The position numbers were made by a program, and so were the translations under genes. A DNA stretch of 64,000 bases, from NCBI GenBank assembly GCA_031256975.1, contig JAIRPN010000017.1, positions 1 to 64,000 on the forward strand, read 5' to 3'. Below are positions 6,839-37,650 of the stretch, piece after piece (position 1 is the first letter of the stretch; each line of letters starts with the position of its first letter). The notes beneath the pieces were generated by a model. It was not told where the DNA came from, made no database searches, and saw only the letters and a list, made by a program, of their open reading frames with translations. This DNA comes from Verrucomicrobiales bacterium (GTDB lineage Bacteria; Verrucomicrobiota; Verrucomicrobiia; Methylacidiphilales; JAAUTS01).

Positions 6839-7973
6839 GGTTGGTAAGTTGGTTGACTGCCACCAGGGCGACGTCGAGCTTGCCCAGAACAGTGGTGGTG
6901 TAGCAGATAAATTCGTCGTTCAGGCAGAAGCGCGGCATGGCGTGGTGATGGTAGCGGTAACGGTCGTCCGGCAACGGAGGCAGGAAGGTGGCAATGGTGG
7001 TGACCTTGCCGGTGCCGCGGTCCATGAACAGCACGTTGTTTTCTTCGGCCGACGGCGCACAGTTGGCGACCAGCAGTTGCTCGTCGTGATTCGCATGCGC
7101 AAAGGAAACCGTTGGCAATGCCCAAGCCAAGGTCTCGGGTGGGTCTTCGTTTGCAGAAGGGGTGGTGTTTTTGAGTTCGACGTATTTCACGCCGTGATGA
7201 TAGTGAATGAACCAGATCCGCTGTCCGTCGGCGCTCCACCATTCATGACCGTGCCTATTGCAGCCGATTTTTGGCAGAACCGGGAACGCGGAGCCGCCGC
7301 GGCGAATGAGATGCATCCGGTTATCGATGGAGGAAACTTCCCCGGTGAGCGGGTGAATCGCGGAGTCCTGGGCGATTAATTGCAAATCAGGATCGACCGG
7401 ATTGAATTGGCCGTGATTGTAGCAGCGGTCAAATTTTTGCCACAACCGCACGGGTGTGCCGTCGAGCGGGATATCGCCGACGAAGCAGTCGGTGCCGATC
7501 TCGGCGTCGAAATTCAGGCTTTTGCCGTCGGCGGAAAAAGTCAGGTGCGTGGCGGTACGGTGTGGTCTGCGCCCGCGGACCATGCTGTCCGGCAGGCGAT
7601 TGATGAAAACGGGTTTGTCGCCCGGCTGCGGGCCGCGTTTCCAAACATCCTGCCCGCGGCACCAATAAGCTTCGCCGGTAAGCGGATCAACGACCGGCGA
7701 GGCATCGAGAAACTGGGTCTCGGGAAAGTCGTGGATTTTGTTGTCATGGAAATCGGCCACGCCGAGGGAGAGCATCGAGGACGGCGGAAACGCCTGATAA
7801 AACCAGAGGTAACGCCCGTCGCTGGAACAGCCGTCATTGACGAAATAAAACGAGCGTTGCTGGATTGCCGACGCTGATTTGAGGATAAAACTTTCGATGC
7901 CGGAGTGTGGATCTTTCCAAATCGTAAACAACGGGGAGTTGCGAATTTCAGTGGCAGAAAACGGGTGTGTCAT
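6819..7973 (-). CDS. Oligogalacturonate lyase-like (PL22-type) beta-propeller protein, copy A (384 aa)
   Basis: The protein resembles oligogalacturonate lyases (Pectate_lyase22): repeated propeller blades and the blocks CYNHGQFNPVDPDLQLIAQD, GHEWWSADG and FCLNDEFICYTTT. The family cleaves unsaturated or saturated oligouronides by beta-elimination, usually in the cytoplasm; there is no signal peptide here. It is about half identical to copy B (11838-12974). The C-terminal putative metal site reads HHHAMP here but HIHPHP in copy B, so one histidine is lost. ATG at 7973 was chosen over a TTG 15 codons upstream because copy B begins at the equivalent place. It is the first gene of the operon running down to 277. 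Confidence 0.75.
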   Translation of the reverse strand: MTHPFSATEIRNSPLFTIWKDPHSGIESFILKSASAIQQRSFYFVNDGCSSDGRYLWFYQAFPPSSMLSLGVADFHDNKIHDFPETQFLDASPVVDPLTGEAYWCRGQDVWKRGPQPGDKPVFINRLPDSMVRGRRPHRTATHLTFSADGKSLNFDAEIGTDCFVGDIPLDGTPVRLWQKFDRCYNHGQFNPVDPDLQLIAQDSAIHPLTGEVSSIDNRMHLIRRGGSAFPVLPKIGCNRHGHEWWSADGQRIWFIHYHHGVKYVELKNTTPSANEDPPETLAWALPTVSFAHANHDEQLLVANCAPSAEENNVLFMDRGTGKVTTIATFLPPLPDDRYRYHHHAMPRFCLNDEFICYTTTVLGKLDVALVAVNQLTNHEQSTH

Positions 7974-8090
7974 AAGACTTGTCGGTACTGTCGAATATGC
8001 AAAAGAATAGTATGGCAAAATAAGGAAAATTCAATTACAATTATTGCATAAAATTACTAAAAATTGGTTAATTTTTGCATAATTACTCTT
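7974..8090. promoter_or_regulatory. Divergent AT-rich promoter region
   Basis: This 117-bp gap separates the PL22-like operon (leftward) from the gene at 8091 (rightward). It is very AT-rich and contains TTGCATAAAATT (8045-8056) and TTTTTGCATAATT (8072-8084). These are weaker versions of the A/T-flanked TTGCAA element found at the other promoters of this locus. No clear Shine-Dalgarno precedes either start. Confidence 0.45.
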
Positions 8091-11837: not shown

Positions 11838-12974
11838 TTAATTCAATAATTCACGCACCGGCACGAAGGCGACATCGACTTGTCCTCGTACTGTCGTGGT
11901 GTAGCAAATGTATTCGTCGTTCAAACAGAATTGCGGGTGGGGATGGATGTGGTAAGCGCTCATGCCGGGGGCAAGGTAAGGCATGAACGAGACGATGGTG
12001 ATGGTCTTGCCGCTGGCGCGATCATAAAACAATACGCCGCTTTGGTTTTCCAGGGGCGGCAGGTAATCGGCGACGATCCAGCGTTCCCGGCTGTCGGTGT
12101 GCGCGTGGGAGACATTGGCCGAGGGCAATGCCAGGGTGACGGGCGGATCTTCGGTCATGCCGGGCTTGACGTCCTTGATATTGATGAATTCGACGCCGCG
12201 ATGATAGTGAATATACCAGACGCGTTCCCCGTTGCCGCTCCACCATTCGTGGCCCTGCATGCCGTTGCCGCCCTTGGGCAGCAGGGGATAAGCGGACTGG
12301 TCGCGGCGGATGAGCCACATGCGGCTGTCAATGCCGCGGACTTCGCCGGTGGCGGGATTGGTGGCGGAGTCCTGGGCGATAAGTTGCAGGTTGGAATCGA
12401 CGGGACTGAACTGGCCGTGGTTATAGCAACGGTCAAACTGTTGCCAGATGCGGACAGGGCTGCCGTCGAGCGGAATTTCACCGACGAAACATTCGGTGCC
12501 GATCAGGGCATCGAGGTTGAGGGATTTTTTATCGGCGCTAAAGGTGAGATGCGTGGTAATGCGCCAGGGCCGGCGATTCCTGACGATGGAGTCGGGCAGG
12601 CGGTTAACAAATTCCACGCGGTCATTGGCGCCGGGACCGCGTTTCCAGATATCCACGCCGCTGCACCAATAAGCCTCGCCATTGGCGGGATCAACGCACG
12701 GCGAGGCATCTAGAAATTGGGTTTCGGGATAACAGCGGGTACTGCCGTCCTGGAAGTCGATTACCCCGAGACAGCGTCCGTAGTTTGCATTTCCTGATGG
12801 CGGGAAGGCGCAATAAAACCAGTAATAACGCCCGTCGGCGGAGATGCTGGGGTTGACGTAATAGAAGGTCTGTTGAAAGGGAGCCGCATGTCCGGGCAGC
12901 AAGTAGCTCCTGACGCCGGAGACAGGGTCTTGCCATGCGGTAAAGAGCGGAGATTGATGAAGGCTTGAAGACAT
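11838..12974 (-). CDS. Oligogalacturonate lyase-like (PL22-type) beta-propeller protein, copy B (378 aa)
   Basis: This paralogue of the protein at 6819-7973 shares CYNHGQFSPVDSNLQLIAQD, QGHEWWSGNGERVWYIHYH and FCLNDEYICYTTTVRG. It retains HIHPHPQF near the C terminus, the likely histidine-rich metal site of oligogalacturonate lyases, so it is the better candidate for an active lyase of the two. There is no signal peptide, hence cytoplasmic. It is the first gene of an operon with GH38. A hairpin lies 17 bp upstream. Pairing of one lyase copy with GH2 and the other with GH38 suggests two oligosaccharide routes; this is inference. Confidence 0.75.
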   Translation of the reverse strand: MSSSLHQSPLFTAWQDPVSGVRSYLLPGHAAPFQQTFYYVNPSISADGRYYWFYCAFPPSGNANYGRCLGVIDFQDGSTRCYPETQFLDASPCVDPANGEAYWCSGVDIWKRGPGANDRVEFVNRLPDSIVRNRRPWRITTHLTFSADKKSLNLDALIGTECFVGEIPLDGSPVRIWQQFDRCYNHGQFSPVDSNLQLIAQDSATNPATGEVRGIDSRMWLIRRDQSAYPLLPKGGNGMQGHEWWSGNGERVWYIHYHRGVEFINIKDVKPGMTEDPPVTLALPSANVSHAHTDSRERWIVADYLPPLENQSGVLFYDRASGKTITIVSFMPYLAPGMSAYHIHPHPQFCLNDEYICYTTTVRGQVDVAFVPVRELLN

Positions 12975-24750: not shown

Positions 24751-25779
24751 ATGAGCTCAGCACCTGTTACGTTAGACGATATCGCAAAAAAATTGGGAAT
24801 TACGGTTTCCACGGCCTCGCGGGCATTGCGTGATCTTCCCGGGATTCATCCCACCACGCGAGCCAAAATTGTCGAAGAAGCAAAAAAGCTGGGATATGTG
24901 GCCCCGAGAAAACGCAAGCAGGATGCGGCACCGCCCCGTAATGTTCTGACCCTGACGCTGGGCGGCGAGGTTCCCTCGTTGTTTCTCTCGGGTATGAGCC
25001 AAGCTTCTCTGCAATTCAATTTTTCTCTCGTGTCCCATCATTTTTCACAGGCGGAGGGGCATCGTATTCTTGATCCCAAGTTTCAGCCTCATCTGCTGCG
25101 AATGGGGTTGGTTTCCGGTATTGTGCTGATTTATAAATGGCCCGACGAAGTGGTGGAGATGCTGAGCCGTAAATTGCCGGTGGTGTCGTTGATTGTCCAG
25201 TACCCCAATCTTCCGGTTGACTTGATCGGCATCGATCATGTGGATGGCATGTTTTCGCTGATCAGGCATTTGCACAAGGCGGGGCATCAACGCATTGGTT
25301 TTTTCGGCCTGAATTCCGAATCGAGCTGGTCGCATTCCCGCTTCGGCGCTTATGTGGAGGTTATGGCGACCTTGGGGTTGCCGCTGGACCTGGGGAATGT
25401 CATCAAGATTGAGGACACCGGAGCCATGGCGATTTTTCCGTATCAAAATGACCGGGTTTATGACCAGGTCATGGAAAAAATCGGGCAGGGAGTACGGGCC
25501 TGGGTTTGCGCGGATGATGTAATCGGGCATTCCCTGTGCGCGGCGTTGGTGCAGCGCGGCGTGAAAATCCCGGAGGATGTTTCCATCACCGGTTTCCATC
25601 GTTACCGGTTTCCGTCGTCCAATTTGCCGGAACTGACCAGTGTGACAATCAAAGAGGAATTACTGGGTATTGGTGCTTTGCGGAGGCTGGCATACCGCCT
25701 GAATCATCCGGACGACCAAACCCGCAGTATTTTGCTGCCGCCGCAGTTTTACCAGGGACAGACTACGTCTAAAGCATAA
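24751..25779 (+). CDS. LacI-family transcriptional regulator (342 aa)
   Basis: The N-terminal helix-turn-helix and hinge are classic: VTLDDIAKKLGITVSTASRA then LRDLPGIHPTTRAKI and AKKLGYV. The remainder is a periplasmic-binding-protein-like sensor domain, normal in length for the family. It would bind a sugar or sugar acid and control the divergent operon beginning at 24515 and probably neighbouring units sharing the TTGCAA element. The sensor lacks the usual long stretch before the first strand, and it begins PPRNVLTLTLGG. No Shine-Dalgarno is visible, as for many genes here. Confidence 0.92.
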   Translation: MSSAPVTLDDIAKKLGITVSTASRALRDLPGIHPTTRAKIVEEAKKLGYVAPRKRKQDAAPPRNVLTLTLGGEVPSLFLSGMSQASLQFNFSLVSHHFSQAEGHRILDPKFQPHLLRMGLVSGIVLIYKWPDEVVEMLSRKLPVVSLIVQYPNLPVDLIGIDHVDGMFSLIRHLHKAGHQRIGFFGLNSESSWSHSRFGAYVEVMATLGLPLDLGNVIKIEDTGAMAIFPYQNDRVYDQVMEKIGQGVRAWVCADDVIGHSLCAALVQRGVKIPEDVSITGFHRYRFPSSNLPELTSVTIKEELLGIGALRRLAYRLNHPDDQTRSILLPPQFYQGQTTSKA

Positions 25780-25789
25780 TTCTTCTGTT

Positions 25790-25835
25790 TTATTTGCAAA
25801 AAAAAGCAAATAAAAAATTTTTTGTTGCAAAAATT
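25790..25835. promoter_or_regulatory. Two tandem candidate operators before the small secreted protein
   Basis: TTATTTGC (25790-25797) and GCAAATAA (25806-25813) are a perfect 8-bp inverted repeat around eight A residues. Immediately after, 25816-25835 is a second symmetrical element, AATTTTT-TGTTGC-AAAAATT. Both contain TTGCAA. They lie after the LacI gene and about 80 bp before the next start, so they may control that gene. Confidence 0.55.
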
Positions 25836-25914
25836 AATAACGATTGCTATTTTTGTGTTAAATAGTAACCAATGGGTTGCTGTTTTAAACAACTTAATTA
25901 ATCAACAGTTATTT

Positions 25915-26451
25915 ATGAAAACCAACAACTCGATTCGAAAATTCACCTTGAAAGCAGCAGGAGCCATGGTTGCGGCGGCCTCTTTGTTGTTTCTGATCAA
26001 TACCAGCCAGGCCGAAACACTGCACCAAAGCTTGAACGGCTCTGATGCCCGAACCGGCGACAACGGCAAGGCAGTGGAGAAAAAGGTGATGGAAACCAAG
26101 ACTACGCCGGATGGCGAGGCGGCGCGCATGGTTGGCAGTGTGAACCAGTGGGGTTTTGTGAATTATTGGTTTGGCTTGCCGACCCCGGCTGGCAAGGCCG
26201 TGGTTCGCTTGAAATTGTATGTCGATGATCCTGATTTGACCAATGGCTACGCGTTGTATATCAAGCGGGAGGGACAAGATCCGCTGGTGAGCCGTTTCAA
26301 GTTGCCTGCCGATGCGAAGAAGGATTCCTCGGTTATCGTTGACGTTCCGGTTGACGTTCCGGCGGAATGGAACTGCGTGACTCTCAAGAAAATACTGGCT
26401 AATGACAAACCGAGTTACTGGATTGAAAGCATTAGCGTGGTATTGCCCTGA
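25915..26451 (+). CDS. Secreted protein of unknown function (178 aa)
   Basis: A signal peptide (KAAGAMVAAASLLFLINTSQA-ET) is followed by about 145 residues with alternating hydrophobic strands (AVVRLKLYVDD, YALYIKREGQ, SVIVDVPVDVPAEWNCVTLK). This is a probable all-beta domain, perhaps carbohydrate-binding; I do not recognise a family. ATG at 25915 is chosen because upstream in-frame codons would bury the signal peptide. It sits behind two candidate operators and ends at a strong terminator, so it is probably a single-gene unit of the same regulon. Confidence 0.7.
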   Translation: MKTNNSIRKFTLKAAGAMVAAASLLFLINTSQAETLHQSLNGSDARTGDNGKAVEKKVMETKTTPDGEAARMVGSVNQWGFVNYWFGLPTPAGKAVVRLKLYVDDPDLTNGYALYIKREGQDPLVSRFKLPADAKKDSSVIVDVPVDVPAEWNCVTLKKILANDKPSYWIESISVVLP

Positions 26452-26520: not shown

Positions 26521-27471
26521 TTAAAAATGAGCGGCTTGCTTGGCGCGCAATACCCAACGCGTGGGGCTTAATTCCTCCTCGGTTGTTAGCGGCATGGTAC
26601 CGAGGCCGAGGATCGTGTCGATGAACGAACCAAGGTAATTGATGCCTGCTGCGGAGATGTCGAGGGGGCCGTGGTCGATTCCGCCAATGACGAGGCGGGT
26701 TTGTTCGCCGCCGCGGTGTGATTCGACAAAGCCGTCACTGCCGATGATACGCAAGGATTCATAACCCCAGATGCCTGTGCCGGGCTGGTTCAGGTAGTTG
26801 GCGCTAATGACGGCAATGCCGCCCTGTTCCAGGCTCGATAACATTCCTGCAGCCATGCGCAGGCCGCCGCTAACGACGGGATTCCCGGCGCTGGTTTCGA
26901 GCGCGTGCACGGAATCAACCCGCTGGCAGGCGACGTGTTCGACAAAGCGCATGGCGTGGATGGCGCATTGGCAGATGAGTCCGCCGTCCATGTTTTCATC
27001 CTGCGGACGCCAAGTCTGGTAGGGATAGGATTTTTCGGCAATGACTTGGATGATTTTTCCGAGGCGTCCGCCCAGGACGATTTCCCGCATGGCGTAATAA
27101 GGCTGACAGAATGCGGTGCCTGCCATCTCGCGGAATTGGCGTCCGCTACGCTTGGCGGCATCAAGGATGGTATCAAGTTCCGTTTCGGTCAGGGCGCAGG
27201 GTTTTTCCGCGTAAACATGTTTGCCTGCCAGCAACGATTTGACGGCGTCCTGTGCTTGGTCGATGCGACGAGGGGAACAGAGCGAAATCAAGTGAATCTC
27301 GGGATCGCGCAGCAAGTCGTCCAATTTGTCGTAGCAGCGCACGCCGGGAGGCAGTTTGTCCTTTGGAAACTGCGCCGCGGCGACAAGCCGGGCGCGAGGC
27401 AGCTGCATCAGTTCGTCGTGTATTTGATGACCGTTAGCGCCGTAAAGGGCGACATTGACAGGACCGTTCAT
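26521..27471 (-). CDS. Gfo/Idh/MocA-family oxidoreductase 2 (316 aa)
   Basis: The family motif EKPC (about residues 94-97) with AGKHVYA before it, and a C-terminal domain with GGLICQCAIHAMRFVEH, identify the family. The nucleotide loop is degenerate: LYGANGHQIH instead of GxGxxG, so cofactor binding may differ or this could be a non-catalytic member. At 316 residues it is shorter than oxidoreductase 1 (397). The ATG overlaps the stop of the symporter gene as ATGA, so import and oxidation of the same compound are probably coupled. Confidence 0.8.
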   Translation of the reverse strand: MNGPVNVALYGANGHQIHDELMQLPRARLVAAAQFPKDKLPPGVRCYDKLDDLLRDPEIHLISLCSPRRIDQAQDAVKSLLAGKHVYAEKPCALTETELDTILDAAKRSGRQFREMAGTAFCQPYYAMREIVLGGRLGKIIQVIAEKSYPYQTWRPQDENMDGGLICQCAIHAMRFVEHVACQRVDSVHALETSAGNPVVSGGLRMAAGMLSSLEQGGIAVISANYLNQPGTGIWGYESLRIIGSDGFVESHRGGEQTRLVIGGIDHGPLDISAAGINYLGSFIDTILGLGTMPLTTEEELSPTRWVLRAKQAAHF

Positions 27472-29555
27472 GATTGATTCTTATCATTAGCGTCAGTTTC
27501 GTCCCGGACTTCGGTCCGTAATTGGGAATCACCGGCATTATGGTGACCGCGCACAGTGCCGTCGTCGACGTCGGAACGTTTGACGATTTTCAAGGTGCGG
27601 AACAAGTCCAGCATGTCGAAACTGGTGCCGATGAAAAACCAAATGGTGGTGATGACGCCAATGACCAGGGTAAGCCAGACGCTTGTGATCATGGTGTATG
27701 TGAACCACCACTCCGCCGAGAGTTTGCCGACACAAAGGGTCCACAACAGGATGATGACGGATGCCAGGGTCCAGAAAATCGTCCAGCCGAAAGTGGCGTA
27801 AGTCAGCACTTTGTCGCCGAAGGTAAAATTCTCGTCGACTTGCAGGAAGCGCTTGAGGAAGGATTTTTTCGTCGTTGCCGGGCTGCTGACGGCGCTTTCC
27901 TCTCCTTCGACGCGGTATTTGCCGCGATGCAGCATTTCATCCATGCAGAAATCCTTTTTGCAGGTCAGCAACGAGACGACGACATAACCAATCGCCGCCA
28001 TCAGCGCCGTGGCCACGGAAAGTTGCTGGCCGTTGAAGGGACAGCGGTCCGCATGGGCGATGAGGTAATTGGCAAATTCGCCGCTGGCGCCCAGGCGCAG
28101 GAGCCAGGAATCGATCTGGGGCCAGCATTGTTGCAAAATGTTGAAGCCCACACCCAGGACCATGCCGGTGACAAGCGCGGTCCAGGCTCCCGCCGTGGTG
28201 CCTTTTTTCCAATACAGGCCGCCCCAGCAGACCAGTCCGACGCCGCCGAGATAGATTGCGCCGATGAGGGCAACCAACATGACGAGGTAATCAACCGGTT
28301 TGAACAGGATGCTGAAAATACTGACGAAGATTGCGACCAGAAAAACAGCCAGCCGTAACGCCAGCATATGAGTCTTGGGTGAAAAAGGGTTTTTGCGCAA
28401 AGGCATGATGACATCCTGCAAAATCGTGGAACCGTAGCCATGCAATTGCACACCCTGTCCAGCGAGCAATCCGAACAATAGGACCGCACAGAAGGCTCCC
28501 TTCACGCCGGGCACGAGGAAGACGCCGAGTGCCGTGGGCATGCGCATTTGCGTGACAAGCTGGCTGTTGCCGAGATTTTTCAGGCTGTCTTCCACCAAGT
28601 TTTGCTGGGTGGAAAAGTCCGGGTGATGAAGGAGGGTGAACGCGGCAATGGATACCAGCAGGGTCATGGCCAGACTGCCTTGTACCCGCCAATTCGCCAG
28701 CACGGTGGCCATGCGCCCTTCATGGGCGTTCTTGGCGGCGGCGGCGAAACCCTGGATCCAGGCGTTGCCGCGATAGTAGTAAATATTCAGGAGCAGGGCG
28801 AACAAGACGTACCAACCGTTGAAGTCGGTTTTGTTGCCGATGTCGAAAGGATCGATATAGGAATTGCCGGGTGCACCGGAAAGCAGGGTGTCGTGCATTT
28901 GCGAAACTGAAATGCTGAATACGATGAAGAATGCTACGACCAGGTAGAAAACGGACGAGAATAACCCCTCCAACGCATCGGTGACCATGACACTGATCTG
29001 CCCGCCGGTCAGCGCGAAGTAAACCGATACAGCCATCAGCACAAACAGTACTGGAACATAGGTGGGCATGATCAATCCGCCGATGGAGCACTTTTCAGGC
29101 AACTCACAAAAATAGACGAAGAACCGGGCGCCGACTGCCGGTTGGATGCCGAAATTGAAGATGCCGGAGAATACATTTAGAAAACTGGCATAGACCCGGA
29201 CGCCCTTGCTGTAGCGCAGTTCAAAGAATTGGTGGAAAGTCAGCGCGCGTGTTTCGCGAAAACGGTAAACGATCAGGCCCAGCAGGCCGAAAAAGAACAA
29301 GACCACGGCTGTCAAGGAATCCCAGAAACGCAGGGAAAAGCCGGTGCGGGAAAACATTTCCAGCGCCGTGATCATGATCATCACGCTGGAGCCCGTCGCG
29401 CCCGAAGCGGTGCAGATCAAATACCGGCCTGCACAGCGGCTGGCCGCGAGAAAGTCCGCAACGCTGCGCATGTATTTCTGCAAATACAGGGAGGCAAAAA
29501 TGACAACCAACAAAGGAACGCCGATGATAATGTAATCCAAAAGAGTGAGGCTCAT
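27468..29555 (-). CDS. Sodium:solute symporter family (SSS) transporter (695 aa)
   Basis: This is a multi-spanning inner-membrane protein with about 13-15 hydrophobic segments, starting LLDYIIIGVPLLVVIFASLY. The early SVADFLAASRCAGRYLICTASGAT-like region (residues about 31-54) is typical of the sodium:solute symporter family, where this segment holds sodium-site residues. Length is longer than the usual 500-600 because of a C-terminal extension (about 560-695) with two more hydrophobic segments. It probably imports sugars or sugar acids released outside the cell. It is the first gene of a two-gene unit with the oxidoreductase at 26521. Confidence 0.88.
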   Translation of the reverse strand: MSLTLLDYIIIGVPLLVVIFASLYLQKYMRSVADFLAASRCAGRYLICTASGATGSSVMIMITALEMFSRTGFSLRFWDSLTAVVLFFFGLLGLIVYRFRETRALTFHQFFELRYSKGVRVYASFLNVFSGIFNFGIQPAVGARFFVYFCELPEKCSIGGLIMPTYVPVLFVLMAVSVYFALTGGQISVMVTDALEGLFSSVFYLVVAFFIVFSISVSQMHDTLLSGAPGNSYIDPFDIGNKTDFNGWYVLFALLLNIYYYRGNAWIQGFAAAAKNAHEGRMATVLANWRVQGSLAMTLLVSIAAFTLLHHPDFSTQQNLVEDSLKNLGNSQLVTQMRMPTALGVFLVPGVKGAFCAVLLFGLLAGQGVQLHGYGSTILQDVIMPLRKNPFSPKTHMLALRLAVFLVAIFVSIFSILFKPVDYLVMLVALIGAIYLGGVGLVCWGGLYWKKGTTAGAWTALVTGMVLGVGFNILQQCWPQIDSWLLRLGASGEFANYLIAHADRCPFNGQQLSVATALMAAIGYVVVSLLTCKKDFCMDEMLHRGKYRVEGEESAVSSPATTKKSFLKRFLQVDENFTFGDKVLTYATFGWTIFWTLASVIILLWTLCVGKLSAEWWFTYTMITSVWLTLVIGVITTIWFFIGTSFDMLDLFRTLKIVKRSDVDDGTVRGHHNAGDSQLRTEVRDETDANDKNQS

Positions 29556-29889: not shown

Positions 29890-30399
29890 ATGAAAGCGAT
29901 AAAGCATCATTTTTCAAGGCGCAGGTGCAAGCGGGAAGCCTTCAGCTTGGTCGAGGTAACAATGGCTTTGGGAATCATGGCCTTTGCCTTGGTTTCCATC
30001 ATTGGGTTAGTGCCTTCCGGCTTGTCCACTTTTCGTCAAACCGTCAATATTTCAGTTGGTTCCCAGATAGTCCAGCAGGTGGTGGCTGATCTGCAGCAAT
30101 CAGGCACCTTGCCGGAACAACCGGAGTGGCGCTATTTCAACGACCAAGGCCAAGAATATACAAGCGCTGCCGACCGAGGTACGGGTAACAACGAACCGGT
30201 CATTTACTACGTCAATGTCATGGTGGATCCACAGGTTACCTTGCCTGGCGGCGATTCGTCCAGCCTCGCGCGAGCAGTGATTGAGATTGTCAATAATCCG
30301 GGAAATATACAGTTATCGCGGGACGCTGAAGGTAGTGTGGTGGGGAGCCGCAATTTACCGGTATCGCGATACTCAGCCTTTGTTTCGAAAAACAGGTGA
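29890..30399 (+). CDS. Pseudopilin-like protein, Verru_Chthon cassette protein B type (169 aa)
   Basis: The N terminus KREA-FSLVEVTMALGIMAF is a class III prepilin signal: a short basic leader cut before Phe, with Glu at +5, then a hydrophobic helix. It begins a four-gene cassette, B-C-A-D, known in Verrucomicrobium and Chthoniobacter from TIGRFAM models (naming from memory). The helix and following QIVQQVVADLQQSGTLPE resemble minor pseudopilin GspI. It should be inserted in the inner membrane and join a type II secretion or type IV pilus-like fibre. ATG at 29890 gives the normal short leader. The stop overlaps the next start as GTGA. Confidence 0.82.
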   Translation: MKAIKHHFSRRRCKREAFSLVEVTMALGIMAFALVSIIGLVPSGLSTFRQTVNISVGSQIVQQVVADLQQSGTLPEQPEWRYFNDQGQEYTSAADRGTGNNEPVIYYVNVMVDPQVTLPGGDSSSLARAVIEIVNNPGNIQLSRDAEGSVVGSRNLPVSRYSAFVSKNR

Positions 30400-31469
30400 A
30401 ATCCGATCCACACAACAAGGCAATGGGTCGGGTATCCGGCTTTAGCTTGGTTGAAATCTTAGTCAGCGTGGCGGTGCTGTCTCTGATAATGATGATTCTT
30501 ATGGCTGTTAGCGTCCAAATCGGTGGCATTTGGCAAAAAACCACGGGAAAAATTGAACAATTCCGCGGCGCTCGAGCCGCTTTTGAATCCATGACCCGCC
30601 GCCTGAGCCAAGCGACGCTCAATACCTATTGGGATTATGACAATCCTACTACGCCAACCAAATACATCCGCCAGTCTGAACTTCGTTTCATCTGCGGCAG
30701 GGCGGCGACATTAATCGGAAACTCCACTAACCTGCAGCCTACGCATGCGGTGTTTTTTCAGGCACCGTTTGGATTTGTCGACGAATCACTCGCTAATGCT
30801 GACAAGGCCGTTGGTTTGGGCAATTTGCTCAATACATGGGGTTACTTTATTGAGTTTGGCAATGATGATGCAGAACGGCCGTCGATTTTGGGTTCCCTTG
30901 TGGGCAGTTCGCGCTATCGCTACCGTTTGCATGAATTCACCCAGCCGGCCAACGCTTTCACGATGTACCAGTATACCGGCACCACCCGCGATTATGACAG
31001 CAACAAACCTAACGGCATGGATTGGTTCCGGCAGAGCATGAACCTACCTCTGCTGCCTGCAGCAGCGCCCAATCGGCCTTCGCATGTGCTTGCTGACAAT
31101 ATCATCGCGTTGATCCTGTTGCCCAAGTTGTCAACCCAGGATGATCCGAGTGGTAACAGATTATCGCCCGATTACCTCTACGATTCCACCGTGGGCAAAG
31201 ACGACCCGTCCATCAATTCCAAAAACCAACTGCCGCCGATCATCCAAGTCACCTTGGTGGCAATTGACGAAACTTCCGCCAAACGCATGGAGAAGGGTTC
31301 TGCCATGCCGGACTTCGGTCTCGATTCGTTATTTGCCAGTGCGGCGAATTACGCGCAGGACCTGGACACCTTGCAAAAAAACCTGACGGATCGGCACGTT
31401 GCTTTCCGTGTTTTCACCACCAACGTCACCATTAGCGGTGCCAAATGGAGCACTGACCAAGTGCAATGA
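30396..31469 (+). CDS. Pseudopilin-like protein, Verru_Chthon cassette protein C type (357 aa)
   Basis: The prepilin signal is GRVSG-FSLVEILVSVAVLSL with Gly at -1 and Glu at +5. The helix continues into GKIEQFRGARAAFESMTRRL, much like the start of minor pseudopilin GspJ, followed by a long mainly beta domain. The GTG at 30396 overlaps the upstream stop; an in-frame ATG at 30423 would give a six-residue leader and is an equally good start. It overlaps the next gene by ATGA. Translational coupling across all four genes suggests that they are made in fixed proportion. Confidence 0.82.
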   Translation: MKSDPHNKAMGRVSGFSLVEILVSVAVLSLIMMILMAVSVQIGGIWQKTTGKIEQFRGARAAFESMTRRLSQATLNTYWDYDNPTTPTKYIRQSELRFICGRAATLIGNSTNLQPTHAVFFQAPFGFVDESLANADKAVGLGNLLNTWGYFIEFGNDDAERPSILGSLVGSSRYRYRLHEFTQPANAFTMYQYTGTTRDYDSNKPNGMDWFRQSMNLPLLPAAAPNRPSHVLADNIIALILLPKLSTQDDPSGNRLSPDYLYDSTVGKDDPSINSKNQLPPIIQVTLVAIDETSAKRMEKGSAMPDFGLDSLFASAANYAQDLDTLQKNLTDRHVAFRVFTTNVTISGAKWSTDQVQ

Positions 31470-34400
31470 CTATCATGAGCCGCAAGCTGCAACAACATGC
31501 CGGATCACAACGCGGAGTGGCATTGATTTTAGTGTTAGGCATATTGGTGCTGGTCTCGGCGCTGATCGTCGCCTTTCTCTCCGGTGTCAAGACGGAGCTG
31601 GTCACCTCGCAAAGTTATGCCTATGGTGCCTCCACCCAGCAACTTGCCGACTCGGTCGTCAAGATGTCCACCGCGCTGATCCAGGACGCCGCCAGTGGCA
31701 CCAACCGCGCCTGGGCCTCGCAACCCGGCATGATCCGCACCTACGGCACAGACGGGCGCCCGGACAAATATTACAAATTGTATTCCTCCGCCACGATGAT
31801 CGTTGACGGTAACAATTTCACCGCTAACGATGAAGCGCCGCCCGTCACTTGGGATCAGCAGCAAGGCGTTTACACCGACCTGAACAGTCCGGTCTTGGAC
31901 AAGTCCGGCACCCTGCATTTCCCGATCATTGACCCGCGGGCCAAGTCTGCCGTCAGCGGCAGCAGCATCGAGGGGTTTGACTACCAGGCAAGCGTCAATG
32001 GCGTGGAACTGCCCGGTGCCGACGCTAACAGCCAGCGCCTCCCCATGCCCGTGCGCTGGCTTTATGTGTTGCAGAACGGCAAGATTGCCGTTCCCGACGA
32101 CACCAGCAACAATGGAGTCGTCACCTTTAGCGCCGGCAATGGTCCTGACGGCATGCCCAGCGCCAGCAACCCCATTGTCGGACGCGTTGCCTTTTGGACT
32201 GATGACGAGAGTTGTAAACTCAACATCAACACCGCTTCCGAGGGAACTTTTTGGGACCGGCCGTGGGCGAATACCGAAACCGAGCAATATCTTGCCACTT
32301 CCATTCCCGCACAAAACGAATTTCAGCGTTTCCCGGGGCATCCGGCGAAAACCAATCTGAGCACCGTTCTTTCTTCCATTTTCCCGTCTCCGAACAGCGG
32401 AACCGCCGGTCCTCAGCGTTTGTCGCCGGTTGACAAATATCCGTCGTATGCGCAATACCAGCCGCAACTCTCCGCCTACTACAAACTTACCCCGCGGGTC
32501 GGCGATGGAGGCACCCGCGGCGGCACTGTCAATGAAAATGACGCTAACAGCAACATAAATGCTTCATTCTCCGCCATTGTTTTGAATCAAGACCGTCTTT
32601 ACGCCTCGGTGGACGAGTTGCTTTACAATCCTGCCCGCACATTGAACAGTGGGACTGTTGCCGGTAGCGGCACCATTACCAATGATTTTTTGGAGAAGGC
32701 AAACTTTTTTCTCACCGCACACAACCGTGCGCCGGAACTCAATTTATTCAACAAACCGCGCATCACCCTGTGGCCGTTGCAGGTTGACCCTGATGATCGC
32801 ACTGCCAAGGATAAACTGATTGCCTTTTGCTCCACAATTAATGACAAACCTTACTATTTTCAGCGTTTCAACACCTATTCCAGAAATCCGCGTACTGCTG
32901 AGGATCCCAGCAGCAACACCGCTTCCAGCAGCCAGTCTGCGGTTAGTGATTGGCAAGAAGTGCTCCGTAATAGGCAACTTTACACCTATCTTGATCAACT
33001 GACCTCGCAGCCTATTCCGGGTTATGGCGGCAGGTTTTCCGACAAATATCCCAATACGCGGCAGCAAATTTTAACCGAGATGTTTGACATGATTCGCAGC
33101 GGGGTGAACCAATACAGTGGCACTTACAATTATGTGCCGACCTATCCTCATCCCGGTTCAGGGCAGGTCATTCCCATCAAGCCGGGGAATAATACACAGG
33201 GATTTGGGCGGACCACGGCCATTGTTGGCGCGGCCATAGTATTTTTCAGGGCAAACTCCGGTACCATCACCTTGCAGGTTGATCCCGTCGGCAGCGGCAG
33301 TAGCACCTACGTTGTAACTAGCACTGGAGCCCTCATTAGCGGCAGTCAAACACCGGATTTGCGTACCGTATTAAACCCGCAGGGTGTAAAAGTCACGCCT
33401 GGTGCAAAAATCGGTGCGACACTAATTCTGAATCCTTACACACCGTCGCCGGGTTTGCCGCCCCTGAATTCAAATTTACAATATGTCATTAGCGGTTTTA
33501 GTTCGTTGAAAGTGACGGGAACCACGGCGCCGAATATGATGCCTTTGCCGTTTGAGGCTGACACATTGACCAACACGGTTACCGCCCGCGGTGAATTTTC
33601 CGGCGGCGCCAATGCCTCGCCGTTTTTTGGCGTGATGTCCAGTTTTCGTTACGCACGTGATCTCAGCGGCGTTTTGGGCGATAATTATAAACCGCAAGGA
33701 ACCAACGCAGTGACACAGTATCCGCTAACCACGCGAAAAGTCGGATCTCTTTATGACGGCGTGGCTGTTAATGAAAACGACACAACGTTTAATTTTTCCG
33801 GCGGAACATTGACTGTGGATGTTTATGCGGGCGCGGACCTTGCCCGTGAAAATCGGCTGCAGACCATCAAGCTCAGTTTTCCTGCTGTTAACGGTCTGTT
33901 GGTGCCGACAGTGAATCCTAATCCAAGTGAAAATGTGCAATCTCCGCCTGATCGAGGGGGTGACGGTTATGGAACAGTTGCGAGCCCGCTTTCCCGCTAT
34001 CGTCGGCAGGAGGATTTATTCAGGTATTTCCGCATACCGGGTCTGCCGGGTTGGATGAAGACTGGTTCTGGTTATAACAGAAGAAGAGATTCCATGGGTA
34101 AAACAAAGGAGGGTGTGGACATTTATTATTGGGCAACAGACATCACACGCGGCATCGAGGCCGATCCGCTGAGCCCGGCCAAGGGCGATTTGCGGGTTTA
34201 TGCCGTCTTGGATACGGTTCCGGAAAATTATTTCCGTCCCTGTCGCGGTTATGATGACATCGTTAGCGACTCCAGCGGGCTCAATTTGCCATCTTACAAA
34301 TACACCAATGTGCAGTCATTGCGCGATTACGGCGCGGACAATACCTACAGCGGTTATGGTTATGATAACAGTTCATTCAGTTATGCGGGTGATGTTACCA

Positions 34401-35812
34401 CCACCCCGGCCAATAATTTTATTTCCGGCACTTATCCGCACTTCATATATAACAGCATCAGCGCCTCGGACAATATTGCGTACGGCCTGCAAATCTCGGC
34501 GTTCGCTGACGGCGTGCTTATTCCGCGAAGTGAATTGCAAACGATCGATCCCAATCGCAAGGGATGGAGTAGTATTGGCAACACGGGCGAATATCGTGCT
34601 TCGGTTCCACCTGCTTGCGCTAATGGTCTTACGGCTGCTCTTACCAGTGGCAATGCTCCGGGTGACTGGGATAACATGACCGGTATCCTTGAGGATGGCG
34701 CGTTTATCAATAAACCAGACGAGGGTAATTCCGTCACCATTAGCACGTTTACGCACTTGCAGTCCTATGAAACCGACGACGTGAACAAAAGAAAAGACAT
34801 GGCCGGCGGTTATTTTGCCATCGGTTTCAGCGGTACCCGTTTGTATCAAATGGATGATTCCGGCACGACTAGCAAAATTTCCACGTACTCCCCGAACCGC
34901 CAGGTTTTTTCCCCTGTCATGTTTGGTTCCTTGCCTACCGGAATCAATCCCGTTGACAGTAGCAACGTGAATCCATGGCAAACCCTTCTGTTCTGCGCCA
35001 ATCCTGCCGCGGGTACCGCACACCCTGGATTTGCGTCGCCGCCGGACTGGCTGCTCCTTGATCTGTTTACCATGCCCATTGTGGAGCCGTATGCCATTAG
35101 CGAACCTTTTTCCACGGCAGGCAAGGTCAACATGAACTACCAGATCATGCCGTTTTCCTATATTCACCGCAGCACCGCGGTTCGTGCCGTGCTAAAATCA
35201 ACACGGTTGATGGCGATTCCGCAGAGCATCTCGACAATCACCGCCGCAATGAACAGTTACAAGGATGGTCAGCGTTGCCTGACCGAATTGCGTTACAATA
35301 TCAATCCTGACGAAAACACCGGCACTCTGCGCGGCTTTGAAAAGTGCTTTGCCAACGGTGATATCTTCAAGAGTGCGGCGGAAATTTGCAGCATCAATCT
35401 GGTGCCGAAAAAAATGCCACAGGCGGGGCTTTCCAACATTAACATGCAGTATCCGAATATTGCCGAACCGGATTATGACGGGACGCCCGCTTGGTGGAAT
35501 AACTTTAAGCTCACCGGTGACAACACCCGTGAATTCCCCTACGGGGATATTTATGCGAGGCTAACGACGAAGTCCAATACCTACACCGTCCACCTGCGCG
35601 TGCAGACGCTGAAAAAATCCGTTAATACCCGGCCTGATCAATGGGTGGAAGGACAGGACAGCGTGGTGGGGGAATATCGTGGTTCCACCACGGTTGAGCG
35701 TTACATTGATGTCAATGATCCCTACCTTCCCGACTTCGCCACTTCGTCGACCGCCAACGTCGAAAGTTATTACAAAATCCACGTTATCAACACCAAGAAA
35801 TTTCAATTCTGA
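31466..35812 (+). CDS. Large exported protein, Verru_Chthon cassette protein A type (1448 aa)
   Basis: The N terminus QRGVALILVLGILVLVSALI is the pattern of the minor pseudopilin GspK, which lacks the +5 glutamate of other pseudopilins. STQQLADSVVKMSTALIQ follows. The rest, over 1,300 residues, is a very large beta- and Asn/Ser/Tyr-rich region, far longer than GspK (about 330), with no enzyme motif that I recognise. It is the third gene, overlapping its neighbours by ATGA (31466) and TGATG (35812). A role as an outsized tip protein of a pseudopilus is an inference from position and N terminus. Confidence 0.78.
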   Translation: MTIMSRKLQQHAGSQRGVALILVLGILVLVSALIVAFLSGVKTELVTSQSYAYGASTQQLADSVVKMSTALIQDAASGTNRAWASQPGMIRTYGTDGRPDKYYKLYSSATMIVDGNNFTANDEAPPVTWDQQQGVYTDLNSPVLDKSGTLHFPIIDPRAKSAVSGSSIEGFDYQASVNGVELPGADANSQRLPMPVRWLYVLQNGKIAVPDDTSNNGVVTFSAGNGPDGMPSASNPIVGRVAFWTDDESCKLNINTASEGTFWDRPWANTETEQYLATSIPAQNEFQRFPGHPAKTNLSTVLSSIFPSPNSGTAGPQRLSPVDKYPSYAQYQPQLSAYYKLTPRVGDGGTRGGTVNENDANSNINASFSAIVLNQDRLYASVDELLYNPARTLNSGTVAGSGTITNDFLEKANFFLTAHNRAPELNLFNKPRITLWPLQVDPDDRTAKDKLIAFCSTINDKPYYFQRFNTYSRNPRTAEDPSSNTASSSQSAVSDWQEVLRNRQLYTYLDQLTSQPIPGYGGRFSDKYPNTRQQILTEMFDMIRSGVNQYSGTYNYVPTYPHPGSGQVIPIKPGNNTQGFGRTTAIVGAAIVFFRANSGTITLQVDPVGSGSSTYVVTSTGALISGSQTPDLRTVLNPQGVKVTPGAKIGATLILNPYTPSPGLPPLNSNLQYVISGFSSLKVTGTTAPNMMPLPFEADTLTNTVTARGEFSGGANASPFFGVMSSFRYARDLSGVLGDNYKPQGTNAVTQYPLTTRKVGSLYDGVAVNENDTTFNFSGGTLTVDVYAGADLARENRLQTIKLSFPAVNGLLVPTVNPNPSENVQSPPDRGGDGYGTVASPLSRYRRQEDLFRYFRIPGLPGWMKTGSGYNRRRDSMGKTKEGVDIYYWATDITRGIEADPLSPAKGDLRVYAVLDTVPENYFRPCRGYDDIVSDSSGLNLPSYKYTNVQSLRDYGADNTYSGYGYDNSSFSYAGDVTTTPANNFISGTYPHFIYNSISASDNIAYGLQISAFADGVLIPRSELQTIDPNRKGWSSIGNTGEYRASVPPACANGLTAALTSGNAPGDWDNMTGILEDGAFINKPDEGNSVTISTFTHLQSYETDDVNKRKDMAGGYFAIGFSGTRLYQMDDSGTTSKISTYSPNRQVFSPVMFGSLPTGINPVDSSNVNPWQTLLFCANPAAGTAHPGFASPPDWLLLDLFTMPIVEPYAISEPFSTAGKVNMNYQIMPFSYIHRSTAVRAVLKSTRLMAIPQSISTITAAMNSYKDGQRCLTELRYNINPDENTGTLRGFEKCFANGDIFKSAAEICSINLVPKKMPQAGLSNINMQYPNIAEPDYDGTPAWWNNFKLTGDNTREFPYGDIYARLTTKSNTYTVHLRVQTLKKSVNTRPDQWVEGQDSVVGEYRGSTTVERYIDVNDPYLPDFATSSTANVESYYKIHVINTKKFQF

Positions 35813-36432
35813 TGAGCCGCCAGTCGACACGCGCCTTTAGCCTGATTGAATTGCTGGTGGTCATCGGTATCATCGCCATGTTGGTCGGCATCGCCACGCC
35901 CGCGTTCATGGCCATCAATCGCAACTCGCAGCTGACCCAGGCCGGGCAGACTCTGATTGAAGAATTTACCGTTGCCCGCCAGACCGCGCTAACCAAGAAT
36001 TGCGTCATCGAGGTCCGTTTTTATGCTTTTGCCAGCGCTAATGACAACGTGCGGCGTTATCGTGCCGTGCAAAGTTTTATCGTTGACGACAACGGCAACG
36101 CCACGGCCGTTGGCAAGGCGCGTTACTTGCCGGGACCGGTCATCATGGACGCCGATGGTGAAATTTCCACGCTTCTCGATACCCAGAACGCCAAGACCAA
36201 TTGGAGTGATGATGATCCGCAAATTCCGTTGCCCGGTGTTGGCACCGCCTATGACGTTCGATTTTTTCAGTACCGCCCTGACGGTTCCACCGGGTTGTCG
36301 CCAATCGGCCGTCAATGGTTCGTCACTCTTCATAATGTCAATTCGGCCAACAATCCGGGTCAATTGCCCAATAATTATTACGTGATCCAGGTTAACCCGC
36401 TCAACGGCATCGTCCAAGCCTACCGGCCTTGA
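35812..36432 (+). CDS. Pseudopilin-like protein, Verru_Chthon cassette protein D type (206 aa)
   Basis: The prepilin signal is STRA-FSLIELLVVIGIIAML with Glu at +5, then TPAFMAINRNSQLTQAGQTL and EEFTVARQTALTKN. This matches the N-terminal half of minor pseudopilin GspH (or FimT), where the helix leads into ARxxA. A small beta domain completes it. The start codon shares a base with the preceding stop. With its three partners it gives one protein of each minor pseudopilin type H, I, J and K. The major pilin, ATPase, platform protein and prepilin peptidase are not in the window. Confidence 0.85.
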   Translation: MSRQSTRAFSLIELLVVIGIIAMLVGIATPAFMAINRNSQLTQAGQTLIEEFTVARQTALTKNCVIEVRFYAFASANDNVRRYRAVQSFIVDDNGNATAVGKARYLPGPVIMDADGEISTLLDTQNAKTNWSDDDPQIPLPGVGTAYDVRFFQYRPDGSTGLSPIGRQWFVTLHNVNSANNPGQLPNNYYVIQVNPLNGIVQAYRP

Positions 36433-36447
36433 TCGGTCTTTAAATTT

Positions 36448-37650
36448 ATGAAAAAAACATCCACATTCACCAGTCGTCTCAAATCACTGCGTCGTACGCA
36501 CGAAAAATTGCTGAAACGCAAAAATCCCGTCGATACCACCTGGTATAACGGTTTGTATGAACGCTACCAATATCCCGTCATCAGCGCGGCGCATGTGCCG
36601 CTGGAGTGGCGCTATGACTTTAATCCGAAAACCAACCCGTTCCTGATCGAACGCCTTGGCGTTAACGCGGCCTTCAACGCCGGGGCCATGGAATGGAACG
36701 GGAAAATTATCGTCTGTGTCCGTGTCGAGGGCTGGGACCGGAAAAGTTTCTTCGCCATTGCGGAATCGGCAAACGGCACCGATCATTTCCGTTTCTGGGA
36801 CCGGCCCTGCGTGATTCCGGAGACCGGGGACCCGGATGCCAATGTTTATGACATGCGATTGGTGAAGCATGAAGACGGCTGGGTATACGGCCTTTTTTGC
36901 ACCGAGCGCCGGGATCCGAAGGCAGCGCCGTCCGATCAATCCAGCGCCGTCGCCCAGTGCGGGCTGGTCCGCACCAGGGATTTGAAACAGTGGGAACGCC
37001 TGCCCGATATCAAGACCCCCTCGGCACAGCAGCGCAACGTGGTCCTGCATCCCGAATTCGTCGGCGGGAAGTACGCCCTTTACACCCGCCCGCAGGACGG
37101 CTTCATCGACACGGGTTCCGGGGGCGGCATTGGCTGGGCATTCTGTGATTCCATGGAAAATGCCAGCACCGGACAGGAGAGCATCATTGACCGGCGCGCT
37201 TACCACACCGTCAACGAACTTAAAAACGGCCAGGGCCCCGCGCCGTTAAAGACCGGGGAAGGCTGGCTGCACCTTGCCCATGGGGTGCGCAATACCGCCG
37301 CTGGATTGCGCTATGTTTTGTACTTGTTCCTGACCGATTTGAAAAATCCGGCCAGGATCATTGCCAAGCCGCAGGGATATTTCATTGCCCCGGTCGGGGA
37401 AGAACGCGTGGGCGATGTTTCCAATGTGGTGTTCAGCAATGGCTGGGTGTGTAAAAAAGACGGGACCGTGTTGATTTACTACGCATCGTCCGACACCCGC
37501 CTGCATGTTGCCACCAGTTCCATTGCACGCCTGCTGGATTACGTGAAAAACACCCCGGCGGACGGTTTGCGCTCGGCGGCCTCCGTGCAGCAAAGACTGG
37601 CGCTTATCCAGGCCAATGCGGCATCGGCGAAAAAACGGAAAAAATCCTAG
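36448..37650 (+). CDS. GH130 4-O-beta-D-mannosyl-D-glucose phosphorylase-like (400 aa)
   Basis: The sequence fits subfamily GH130_1: FNAGAMEWNGKIIVCVRVEG, VYD135MRLVKHEDGW with the probable catalytic aspartate, LHPEFVGGKYALYTRPQDGF and GGGIGW. These enzymes split beta-1,4-mannosyl-glucose with phosphate to mannose 1-phosphate and glucose, in the cytoplasm, in mannan or glucomannan use. Length matches characterised members (about 390). It starts only 15 bp after the pseudopilin cassette and may be co-transcribed with it. It shares its last 4 bp (CTAG) with the convergent HAD gene. Confidence 0.88.
   Translation: MKKTSTFTSRLKSLRRTHEKLLKRKNPVDTTWYNGLYERYQYPVISAAHVPLEWRYDFNPKTNPFLIERLGVNAAFNAGAMEWNGKIIVCVRVEGWDRKSFFAIAESANGTDHFRFWDRPCVIPETGDPDANVYDMRLVKHEDGWVYGLFCTERRDPKAAPSDQSSAVAQCGLVRTRDLKQWERLPDIKTPSAQQRNVVLHPEFVGGKYALYTRPQDGFIDTGSGGGIGWAFCDSMENASTGQESIIDRRAYHTVNELKNGQGPAPLKTGEGWLHLAHGVRNTAAGLRYVLYLFLTDLKNPARIIAKPQGYFIAPVGEERVGDVSNVVFSNGWVCKKDGTVLIYYASSDTRLHVATSSIARLLDYVKNTPADGLRSAASVQQRLALIQANAASAKKRKKS

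Follow-up and report, generated by a model that had tools for sequence, protein, structure and literature searches.

The Verru_Chthon cassette encodes GspH-, GspI- and GspJ-like proteins and a giant GspK-like protein, a candidate filament-tip set for polysaccharide handling

What do the four prepilin-like proteins of the Verru_Chthon cassette do? The question is raised by positions 29890-36432 of the window, by which we mean the whole 64,000-nucleotide stretch of a Verrucomicrobiales contig that was analysed, and no function is attached to the family names. An earlier note, made from the DNA letters, had read these overlapping genes as a complete set of minor pseudopilins (H, I, J and K) with a giant K-like protein. 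The genes lie on the + strand in the order B-C-A-D and overlap by 4, 4 and 1 bases at their junctions (Table 1). All four products exceeded the curated cut-offs of their NCBIfam models, with 59.5 bits for B (TIGR02598, cut-off 51.4), 349.7 for C (TIGR02599, 256.5), 1088 for A (TIGR02600, 332.3) and 138 for D (TIGR02596, 70), and the open reading frames and the four models together confirmed a Verru_Chthon cassette in a single operon. B, C and D carry the signal G/A↓F-S-L-[IV]-E, with Glu at +5. By pattern, a signal with Glu at +5 was present in 67 of 69 unselected relatives of B, 72 of 77 of C and 66 of 67 of D; the later counts of 100% for these proteins come from rows chosen with the same pattern.

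Table 1. Features of the cassette, of protein A and of the neighbouring genes (positions in the window)
Feature	Positions	Strand	Basis
LacI-type regulator, four genes upstream of the cassette	24751..25779	+	local LacI HMM
Sodium/solute symporter homologue, divergent	27468..29555	-	TIGR00813, 59.3 bits, below the cut-off of 184
Cassette protein B, GspI/PilV-like minor pseudopilin	29890..30399	+	169 aa from the given start; TIGR02598
Cassette protein C, GspJ-like minor pseudopilin	30396..31469	+	357 aa; TIGR02599, model vs GspJ
Cassette protein A, giant GspK-like protein	31466..35812	+	1448 aa; TIGR02600, relative's model vs GspK
A residues 15-77, K-type prepilin signal (no Glu at +5) and predicted N-terminal helix	31508..31696	+	helix 2-63 in homologous model
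A residues 245-257, TDDESCKLNINTA	32198..32236	+	conserved block; GspK alignment A7
A residues ~583-925, predicted Ig/C2-like beta-sandwich insertion	33212..34240	+	approximate limits, transferred from relative's model
A residues 1192-1226, PPDWLLLDLF...AGKVNMN	35039..35143	+	conservation; A7 alignment
A residues 1365-1448, predicted C-terminal strands closing the pilin sheet	35558..35809	+	strands 990-1062 of homologous model
Cassette protein D, GspH-like minor pseudopilin	35812..36432	+	206 aa; TIGR02596, GspH model
GH130-family protein	36448..37650	+	PF04041, E 1.9e-21; starts 15 bp 3' of D

The arrangement is not a product of chance, since relatives of A were encoded in 239 stretches of the genome contigs searched and the four genes were contiguous in 57 of the 86 cassettes of the retrieved loci, many of the others lying at contig ends. 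The gene orders among cassettes were BCAD, ABCD, BCDA and DBCA. A cultured relative, Chthoniobacter flavus Ellin428, has cassettes too (L049, L082 and L087).

For the two smaller proteins, the closest sequence similarity was of D to H models and of B to I/PilV models. The window's D matched the GspH model with E 3.8e-7, and 51 of 52 D relatives matched it as well; one D row lying far from a cassette (L092:1003-1641) was left out of the D set. Among 56 relatives of B, the model matches were XpsI (24), PilV (22), GspI (16) and XpsH (1), and the window's B alone reached GspI with an E of only 0.029. Against the PDB, the D profile recovered mostly pilin N-termini and the B profile unrelated chains only. 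The comparisons support D as a putative GspH-like protein and B as a putative GspI/PilV-like protein.

The window's C was modelled by AlphaFold2 (residues 10-357, pLDDT 88.6), and the best matches of the model were GspJ structures, namely 5vtm_W (Z 11.2, 154/161 residues aligned, rmsd 3.8, a GspJ fold) and 3ci0_J (Z 10.9). The GspJ matches ranged from Z 11.2 to 10.2 and unrelated structures followed from 5.0; the Thermus pilin TTHA1219 was also in the top ten. Foldseek alone gave nothing below E 0.001 for this model, a search of the window's C with the GspJ model TIGR01711 was empty to E 1, and the divergent C of another locus (L014) scored 24.6 of the 64.85 bits set as its cut-off. The predicted fold thus supports C as a GspJ-like minor pseudopilin, and this verdict, like that on A, rests on VIA-align, which only re-ranks the Foldseek list.

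The giant protein A was said to start like GspK, with no Glu at +5, and this held across the family: none of 68 aligned A proteins had Glu at +5, and 64 of the 68 had Gly at -1. The structure model of A is that of a relative with 1065 aa (pTM 0.88) that is 39% identical to the window's A (alignment A3). Its top three structures by VIA-align were all GspK, 5vtm_X (Z 10.4, 231/259 aligned, rmsd 3.3), 3ci0_K (Z 10.1, 257/280 aligned, rmsd 3.9) and 6utu_F (Z 10.0), and the next structure scored 5.0; in the 3ci0_K match, model residues 32..1065 corresponded to the whole chain. On this relative, the GspK fold including the alpha-domain was recovered. Because the top matches were exclusively GspK and spanned the whole chain, A is modelled as a GspK fold that carries very large insertions. 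By eye rather than by hhalign, TDDESCKLNINTA is the apparent counterpart of the GspK motif D-E-x-x-K-x-x-x-N, and residues 1192-1226, likewise matched by eye, are a possible counterpart of the second GspK motif, I-N-x-N-T.

The sequence searches linked A to GspK at its N terminus or not at all. The window's A scored 27.8 of the 130 bits required by the GspK equivalog NF037980, over residues 15-86 only, and we therefore call A a giant GspK-like variant and not GspK. In hhalign, A and ten canonical verrucomicrobial GspK proteins aligned over no more than 77 columns, all N-terminal, and a PDB search with the profile of 68 A proteins was empty to E 1. For the A model, no match by Foldseek alone fell below E 0.001; an E. 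coli adhesin ranked first (E 0.11) and GspK fourth (E 0.43). Residues 492-712 of the relative's model matched many beta-sandwich domains weakly, with Z 4-5 (e.g., GH2 Ig-like domains); these matches, like that to the adhesin, were too weak to count in favour of glycan or surface binding by the insertion.

Taken part by part, the reading as an H-I-J-K set with a giant K was supported by sequence models for D and B and by structure for C and A, and the resemblance of B, C and D to GspI, GspJ and GspH, prepilin signals included, was borne out. The word "complete" needs qualifying, in that the sequence match of A to GspK covers only about 80 N-terminal residues and lies below the cut-off. The T2SS tip GspH-I-J-K (XcpU-V-W-X; 3ci0, 5vtm) likewise has four minor pseudopilins, whose J and K folds were matched here, and GspK and cassette A both lack Glu at +5. 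In the T2SS, GspK sits on top of a GspI-GspJ pair at the filament tip and binds calcium. The cassette differs from it in a K about four times larger, varied gene orders, core-free loci and several copies per genome.

The proposal that many cassettes share one core was matched in one complete related genome (G041), which has 18 cassette loci, seven with full A genes and 11 with giants recognised by the N terminus only. B and C adjoin A at all 18. The A proteins are about 1060-1410 residues long; one of their genes is spread over different frames, and another is truncated at the edge of the retrieved stretch. As machinery, this genome has two secretins, one pair each of PilB and PilT, and one T2SS locus, which brings H, I, J and K of its own. 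T2SS loci were present in the relatives G041 and G084, a PilB pair was found in all eight cassette genomes, and a T2SS-type GspE of about 440 bits was absent from G000 and G107. The window's own genome, an 87%-complete assembly, yielded a PilB pair, PilC, a PilT pair and a Tad secretin only, with no T2SS secretin or T2SS-type GspE found; its GspG search gave 12 matches, none above the cut-off, and no major subunit was identified. The cassette loci examined were free of core genes, and of the set gspD, gspE and gspF, no secretin or ATPase match fell within the window or at its genome's own cassette loci. Every genome that has cassettes above the cut-offs also has secretins and strong ATPases of the PilB type (9/9), and 11 relatives without PilB-strength matches also had no cassettes; this co-occurrence was downgraded as evidence, as both are present in almost every genome of the class.

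The gene neighbourhood pointed to sugar catabolism. With the GH130 gene starting 15 bp after D, the transcription unit appears to continue into it, and this gene is probably on the same transcript as the cassette. Its homologue family occurs in 7 loci, 4 of the 7 members adjoining a cassette, and homologues of the symporter lie near 3 other cassettes. In G041, LacI-type regulators were found at 10/18 cassette loci vs 0/20 control loci (p 9e-5) and PEP-CTERM at 14/18 vs 4/20 (p 9e-4), and sugar transporters and glycoside hydrolases accompany the regulators; the 20 control stretches were placed by hand, not at random, on round coordinates set apart from one another and clear of cassettes. The local HMMs for LacI, GH130, MFS and SASA were built from cassette neighbours and are biased to the types found there, so Pfam counts served as an independent check. 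In 94 neighbour genes (one 2016-aa gene of 95 was omitted), these gave Peripla_BP_3 9, LacI 7, MFS_2 6, PATR 5, GH2 3 and GH5 3, and none of these appeared in the list of families for 95 control genes. Across loci, genes were called with a codon-model caller and have approximate starts; 12 near-duplicate loci were dropped by eye from the adjacency and neighbour-family statistics (L032, L051, L052, L060, L062, L063, L068, L069, L077, L096, L097 and L100). Outside G041, the neighbours enriched beside cassettes are giant beta-repeat proteins, many of them with PEP-CTERM. PATR was found in 12/75 adjacent co-directional genes vs 2/325 genes at least 4 genes away (p 6e-8); PEP-CTERM counts were 16/90 vs 25/544 with near-duplicate loci included. 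LacI, GH130, MFS or SASA lay within five genes of 23/47 cassettes with A as an inner or last gene, of 2/17 A-first cassettes and of 0/9 lone A genes, and a LacI search at the own genome's four divergent loci gave no matches. The association with sugar genes is thus not universal among cassettes, and PATR neighbours mark a minority of them. Neither the sugar-catabolic setting nor the enrichment of beta-repeat and PEP-CTERM neighbours figured in the earlier note.

What has been observed are the prepilin-type signals, the identities of the subunits (from sequence or from predicted folds), the multiplicity, the core-free loci and the neighbourhood. Our preferred reading, which we hold to be rather likely, is that the cassette forms a minor-pseudopilin tip complex on a shared filament core, with each tip dedicated to one polysaccharide system, since sugar-catabolic islands, or the vicinity of giant beta-repeat surface proteins, are where cassettes are often found. 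D, B, C and A would take the places of H, I, J and K, the last made about four times larger than usual by very large insertions within the GspK fold. After export by Sec and cleavage by prepilin peptidase, these proteins would cap a type IV-type filament, whose assembly machinery, encoded elsewhere, would be common to every cassette in the genome. This would place the giant insert of A at the filament tip, and each tip may bind the glycan of its island or the island's surface protein and so aid capture or movement. More tentatively, and at somewhat less than an even chance, one filament machine would be fitted with interchangeable tips for different substrates, each tip being an island-borne H-I-J-giant-K set cotranscribed with regulator and enzymes, with the giant K as glycan receptor.

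Three other readings were weighed against the same data. The cassettes could be alternative T2SS tips that recognise and export a cognate protein encoded next door, either a giant PATR or PEP-CTERM protein or enzymes of the island, the K insert docking cargo instead of binding glycan. The accessible part of one source describes the T2SS tip as recognising secretion substrates (PMC6211770), the 12/75 adjacent co-directional genes with PATR stand against 0/45 on the opposite strand, and the neighbours are long, 21/75 adjacent co-directional genes reaching at least 800 aa vs 13/325 far genes. Most cassettes, however, have no PATR or PEP-CTERM neighbour, and the window's downstream GH130 protein, with no evident signal peptide on inspection of its sequence, would need no export. 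The sorting of PEP-CTERM proteins is moreover generally ascribed to exosortase, an enzyme that all eight genomes encode and that hence does not discriminate among them; we consider the export reading rather unlikely.

That A replaces PilX and PilY1 and caps a twitching pilus for general attachment, with no glycan specificity, would suit the PilB pairs of all eight cassette genomes, the two genomes missing T2SS-type GspE and the PilT pair of the window's own genome, as well as the three PilY1/minor-pilin clusters reported for one machine in Myxococcus xanthus (PMC7541494, in the part available). PF05567 (PilY1) matched none of the 8 cassette genomes, but none of 14 controls either. Eighteen loci in one genome and a LacI/sugar setting are hard to square with general attachment, and we judge this reading unlikely. 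A self-contained complex of the inner membrane or periplasm, in which prepilin signals serve insertion only and no filament forms, would suit the lack of core genes at the cassette loci examined and the failure to find any of the T2SS core in the own assembly. It is improbable: all four H-I-J-K identities are kept, Glu at +5 in B, C and D and its absence from A fit incorporation into a filament, and the 9/9 co-occurrence with secretins and PilB-type ATPases points the same way, weakly, most of the class having cores.

The proposed tip complex resembles several known systems in part. In cyanobacteria, Hps pseudopilins (HpsA-D) act in polysaccharide secretion by hormogonia, and HpsA is also a very large protein; HpsC is matched weakly by the C protein of the window and by that of L014. 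As far as the available text of PMC7541494 goes, clusters 1-3 of M. xanthus (FimU, PilV, PilW, PilX and PilY1) share several minor-pilin sets per machine with the cassette genomes, and its authors speculate that the tips differ in substrate recognition; there, PilY1 is separate from PilX, whereas the large part of the cassette is inside K, at up to 18 sugar-island-linked loci. MUL2 of Akkermansiaceae, described in the accessible portion of PMC13174399 as a type IV-like pilus for glycan attachment with Amuc_1099-1102 homologues, likewise ties a pilus-like machine of Verrucomicrobiota to glycan capture, but with other genes, and is reported there as undetected in Methylacidiphilales. Verruconatronum alginivorum also has multiplied pseudopilins, a PulG-like expansion of 67 homologues with one copy induced by alginate (PMC13274419, as far as available); these are of the major-pseudopilin type and not an H-I-J-K tip set. 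With the cassette itself the same as the named Verru_Chthon families, what is new here is the subunit identities, the GspK fold modelled for A, the shared-core multiplicity and the neighbourhood statistics.

Up to eighteen sets in close relatives, many beside sugar-breakdown genes, suggest an exchange of filament tips from one polysaccharide to another. Each machine normally has one minor pseudopilin set, and 18 sets in a complete genome with just one T2SS locus and one PilB pair make the question of tip recognition testable, with the islands predicting the ligands. Verrucomicrobiota are major polysaccharide degraders, and the proposed tips, if real, would provide a mechanism by which they capture large glycans and a function for NCBIfam families so far only named. 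In Bacteroidota, SusCD pairs define polysaccharide utilisation loci; on the more tentative reading of interchangeable tips, the cassettes would be their filament-based counterpart.

The Verru_Chthon cassette of the window consisted of four co-directional genes (29890-36432) whose frames overlapped by 4, 4 and 1 bases, and B, C, A and D each scored over the curated cut-offs of the cassette families (TIGR02598, TIGR02599, TIGR02600 and TIGR02596, respectively). These four NCBIfam families already exist. In the openly licensed literature searched, the name "Verru_Chthon" was not found, and among the papers linking pseudopilins or prepilins to Verrucomicrobiota, polysaccharides or PEP-CTERM, no title or abstract was found to describe such cassettes. 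The best-matching named relatives of A included two Candidatus Methylacidiphilales/Methylacidiphilaceae records and other Verrucomicrobiota.

Positions of the cassette genes, their flanks and loci elsewhere (L, retrieved locus; G041, complete related genome)
Feature	Location	Position (strand)	Observation
B	window	29890-30399 (+)	
C	window	30396-31469 (+)	
A	window	31466-35812 (+)	1448 aa
D	window	35812-36432 (+)	
GH130-family gene	window	15 bp 3' of D	
Symporter gene	window	upstream of cassette	divergent
LacI-type regulator	window	four genes upstream of cassette	
Small protein	window	25822-26451 (+)	signal-peptide-like start; homologues on the same strand as the L027, L028 and L029 cassettes and at most three genes away (4/4 members)
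~380-aa family, two copies	window	6819-8018 (-); 11838-12974 (-)	PVSxVxSxxL ... QQxFYF; recurs near cassettes in L027, L028, L029 and L092; L027 member, adjoining its cassette, without match in Pfam or NCBIfam
Open-ended frame	window	57254-64000 (+)	at least 2249 aa; signal-peptide-like start; continues past window end
Orphan giant K-like gene	L013, own genome	7142-13496	directly adjoins a PATR/PEP-CTERM protein
I-J-K-like set	L015, own genome	7979-11746	~850-aa K matches GspK model in two separate stretches
Tad/Flp-type locus	L024, own genome	6001-13216	genes named by sequence and gene order rather than by models
Tandem A genes	L042	1001-10073	within one locus
Tandem A genes	L056	9959-18452	within one locus
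1100-aa protein	L117, G041	4448-7747 (-)	signal-peptide-like start; just upstream of divergent cassette; without PEP-CTERM end

The proposal in the earlier note that B, C and D resemble GspI, GspJ and GspH was supported. Among 52 relatives of D, 51 matched the GspH model and 4 the GspI model, and the 56 relatives of B matched the models of XpsI (24), PilV (22), GspI (16) and XpsH (1); taken singly, the B of the window matched GspI weakly (E 0.029). The C of the window itself was modelled using an alignment of 60 relatives (pLDDT 88.6, pTM 0.84), and GspJ proteins ranked first in VIA-align (5vtm_W, Z 11.2, 154/161 aligned, rmsd 3.8; 3ci0_J, 10.9; 3cfi_H, 10.7), where unrelated rows began at Z 5.0. 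One type IV-like pilin, TTHA1219 (5g23, 5g24), was among the top ten as well.

The fold of A was modelled on the relative at L092 (1065 aa, 39% identical to the A of the window in the alignment) with 68 sequences (pLDDT 88.1, pTM 0.88). The top three VIA-align matches were all GspK (5vtm_X, Z 10.4; 3ci0_K, 10.1; 6utu_F, 10.0), and the next row stood at 5.0. The match used 257 of the 280 residues of 3ci0_K and spanned the model from residue 32 to its last residue, indicating a complete GspK core threaded through an approximately fourfold longer protein, with about 800 residues of the model outside this core. None of the 68 A proteins carried Glu at +5, consistent with the previous description of A as beginning K-type without this residue. 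The hhalign alignment of A with ten canonical verrucomicrobial GspK proteins was limited to 77 N-terminal columns, and the A of the window scored 27.8 bits against the 130 required by the GspK model; therefore, A was classed as a giant GspK-like variant and not as GspK. Sequence comparison by itself would not have revealed the GspK-like fold of A. Intermediate sizes were present in the class, such as frames of 804-1125 aa in three genomes (G039, G055 and G104), whose matches to TIGR02600 were split into an N-terminal, a central-motif and a C-terminal segment. The L015 K is possibly intermediate between canonical and giant K, and the tandem A genes suggest recent duplication of the giant subunit by itself.

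The own genome carried four full-length A genes and, at four more loci, genes for giant K-like proteins (about 970-1270 aa, one of ~850 aa with its start read by eye) that matched A over the first ~60 residues only. In the profile comparison, four divergent giants (three from the own genome and one from G041) matched A with P 98.8 at the N-terminus only. B-, C- or D-like prepilins were among the neighbours at 3/4 divergent loci of the own genome (L012, L014 and L015), and none were found among the neighbours of the orphan L013, whose setting looks like an arabinose-utilisation locus.

The check proposed in the earlier note, whether many cassettes go with one core, gave the expected result in G041 (one contig, 3.76 Mb), with 18 loci versus one T2SS locus and one PilB pair. 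Of the 18 loci, seven were full A loci, one of them split across frames, and eleven held giants that matched at the N-terminus only; B and C genes stood beside A at 18/18, and a walk with B/C/D HMMs gave 14 four-gene and 4 three-gene blocks. A separate H-I-J-K set belonged to the T2SS locus, and the genome also had a PilT pair and two secretins. The PilB pair was present in 8/8 cassette genomes examined, whereas the ~440-bit T2SS-type GspE was missing from two of them (G000 and G107), so that the motor in question may be that of the type IV pilus. Among the 113 genomes sampled from the class, A exceeded the cut-off in 9, all with secretins and strong PilB-type ATPases, and the cassette was in none of 11 sister-family genomes without PilB-strength matches; since almost every genome of the class has such cores, this co-occurrence is consistent but weak. 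Two results from the own assembly (2.76 Mb, 87% complete; the window is its contig C15) count against this reading: the sole secretin found sits in the Tad locus, and all GspG matches were under the cut-off.

The cassettes were frequently found in a sugar-catabolic setting. In G041, LacI-type regulators occurred at 10/18 cassette stretches versus 0/20 control stretches (p 9e-5) and PEP-CTERM proteins at 14/18 versus 4/20 (p 9e-4). Pfam families among the 94 genes within three genes of these cassettes included Peripla_BP_3 (9), LacI (7), MFS_2 (6), PATR beta-strand repeats (5), GH2, GH5 and CBM9 (3 each), GH28 and heparinase (2 each), and GH1, GH35 and GH92 (once each); none of these families was among the 25 listed for 95 control genes. 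In the own genome, a LacI gene lay within the examined stretch at 4/4 full cassettes and was absent at the 4 divergent loci and 3 core stretches examined. Across 73 de-duplicated cassettes (named genomes plus the own four), LacI, GH130, MFS or SASA genes lay within five genes at 23/47 cassettes with A inner or last, 2/17 with A first and 0/9 with a lone A, indicating that the sugar link depends on lineage or type.

Same-strand genes adjoining cassettes were at least 800 aa long in 21/75 cases versus 13/325 genes at least four genes off (rank test p 6e-9). PATR repeats occurred in 12/75 adjacent same-strand genes versus 0/45 adjacent opposite-strand and 2/325 far genes. With Pfam, PATR was matched in 13/67 adjacent co-directional genes and was absent from the families that were matched in at least two of the 67 control genes. 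PEP-CTERM motifs ended many of the giant neighbours. The association extended to A-first cassettes (6/17 adjacent).

In published reports, a PulG-like pseudopilin responds to alginate by induction, and a single genome encodes 67 homologues (PMC13274419); an Akkermansiaceae type IV-like pilus attaches to glycans and is reported as not detected in Methylacidiphilales (PMC13174399); and Verrucomicrobium spinosum has 65 PEP-CTERM proteins (PMC1569441). Published work also describes the T2SS tip, which is made of four minor pseudopilins, as recognising secretion substrates (PMC6211770) and, in M. xanthus, one machine served by three minor-pilin/PilY1 clusters, with the authors speculating that substrate recognition varies between tips (PMC7541494). 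Compared with these systems, the cassette fits an enlarged version in which the large receptor would lie inside K itself. The tip partner could be either the polysaccharide of the island or the adjoining surface protein, and that the giant K is a glycan receptor is a tentative and somewhat doubtful suggestion. On balance, we favour, with moderate confidence, a common filament that would carry exchangeable tips, with a glycan-linked function.
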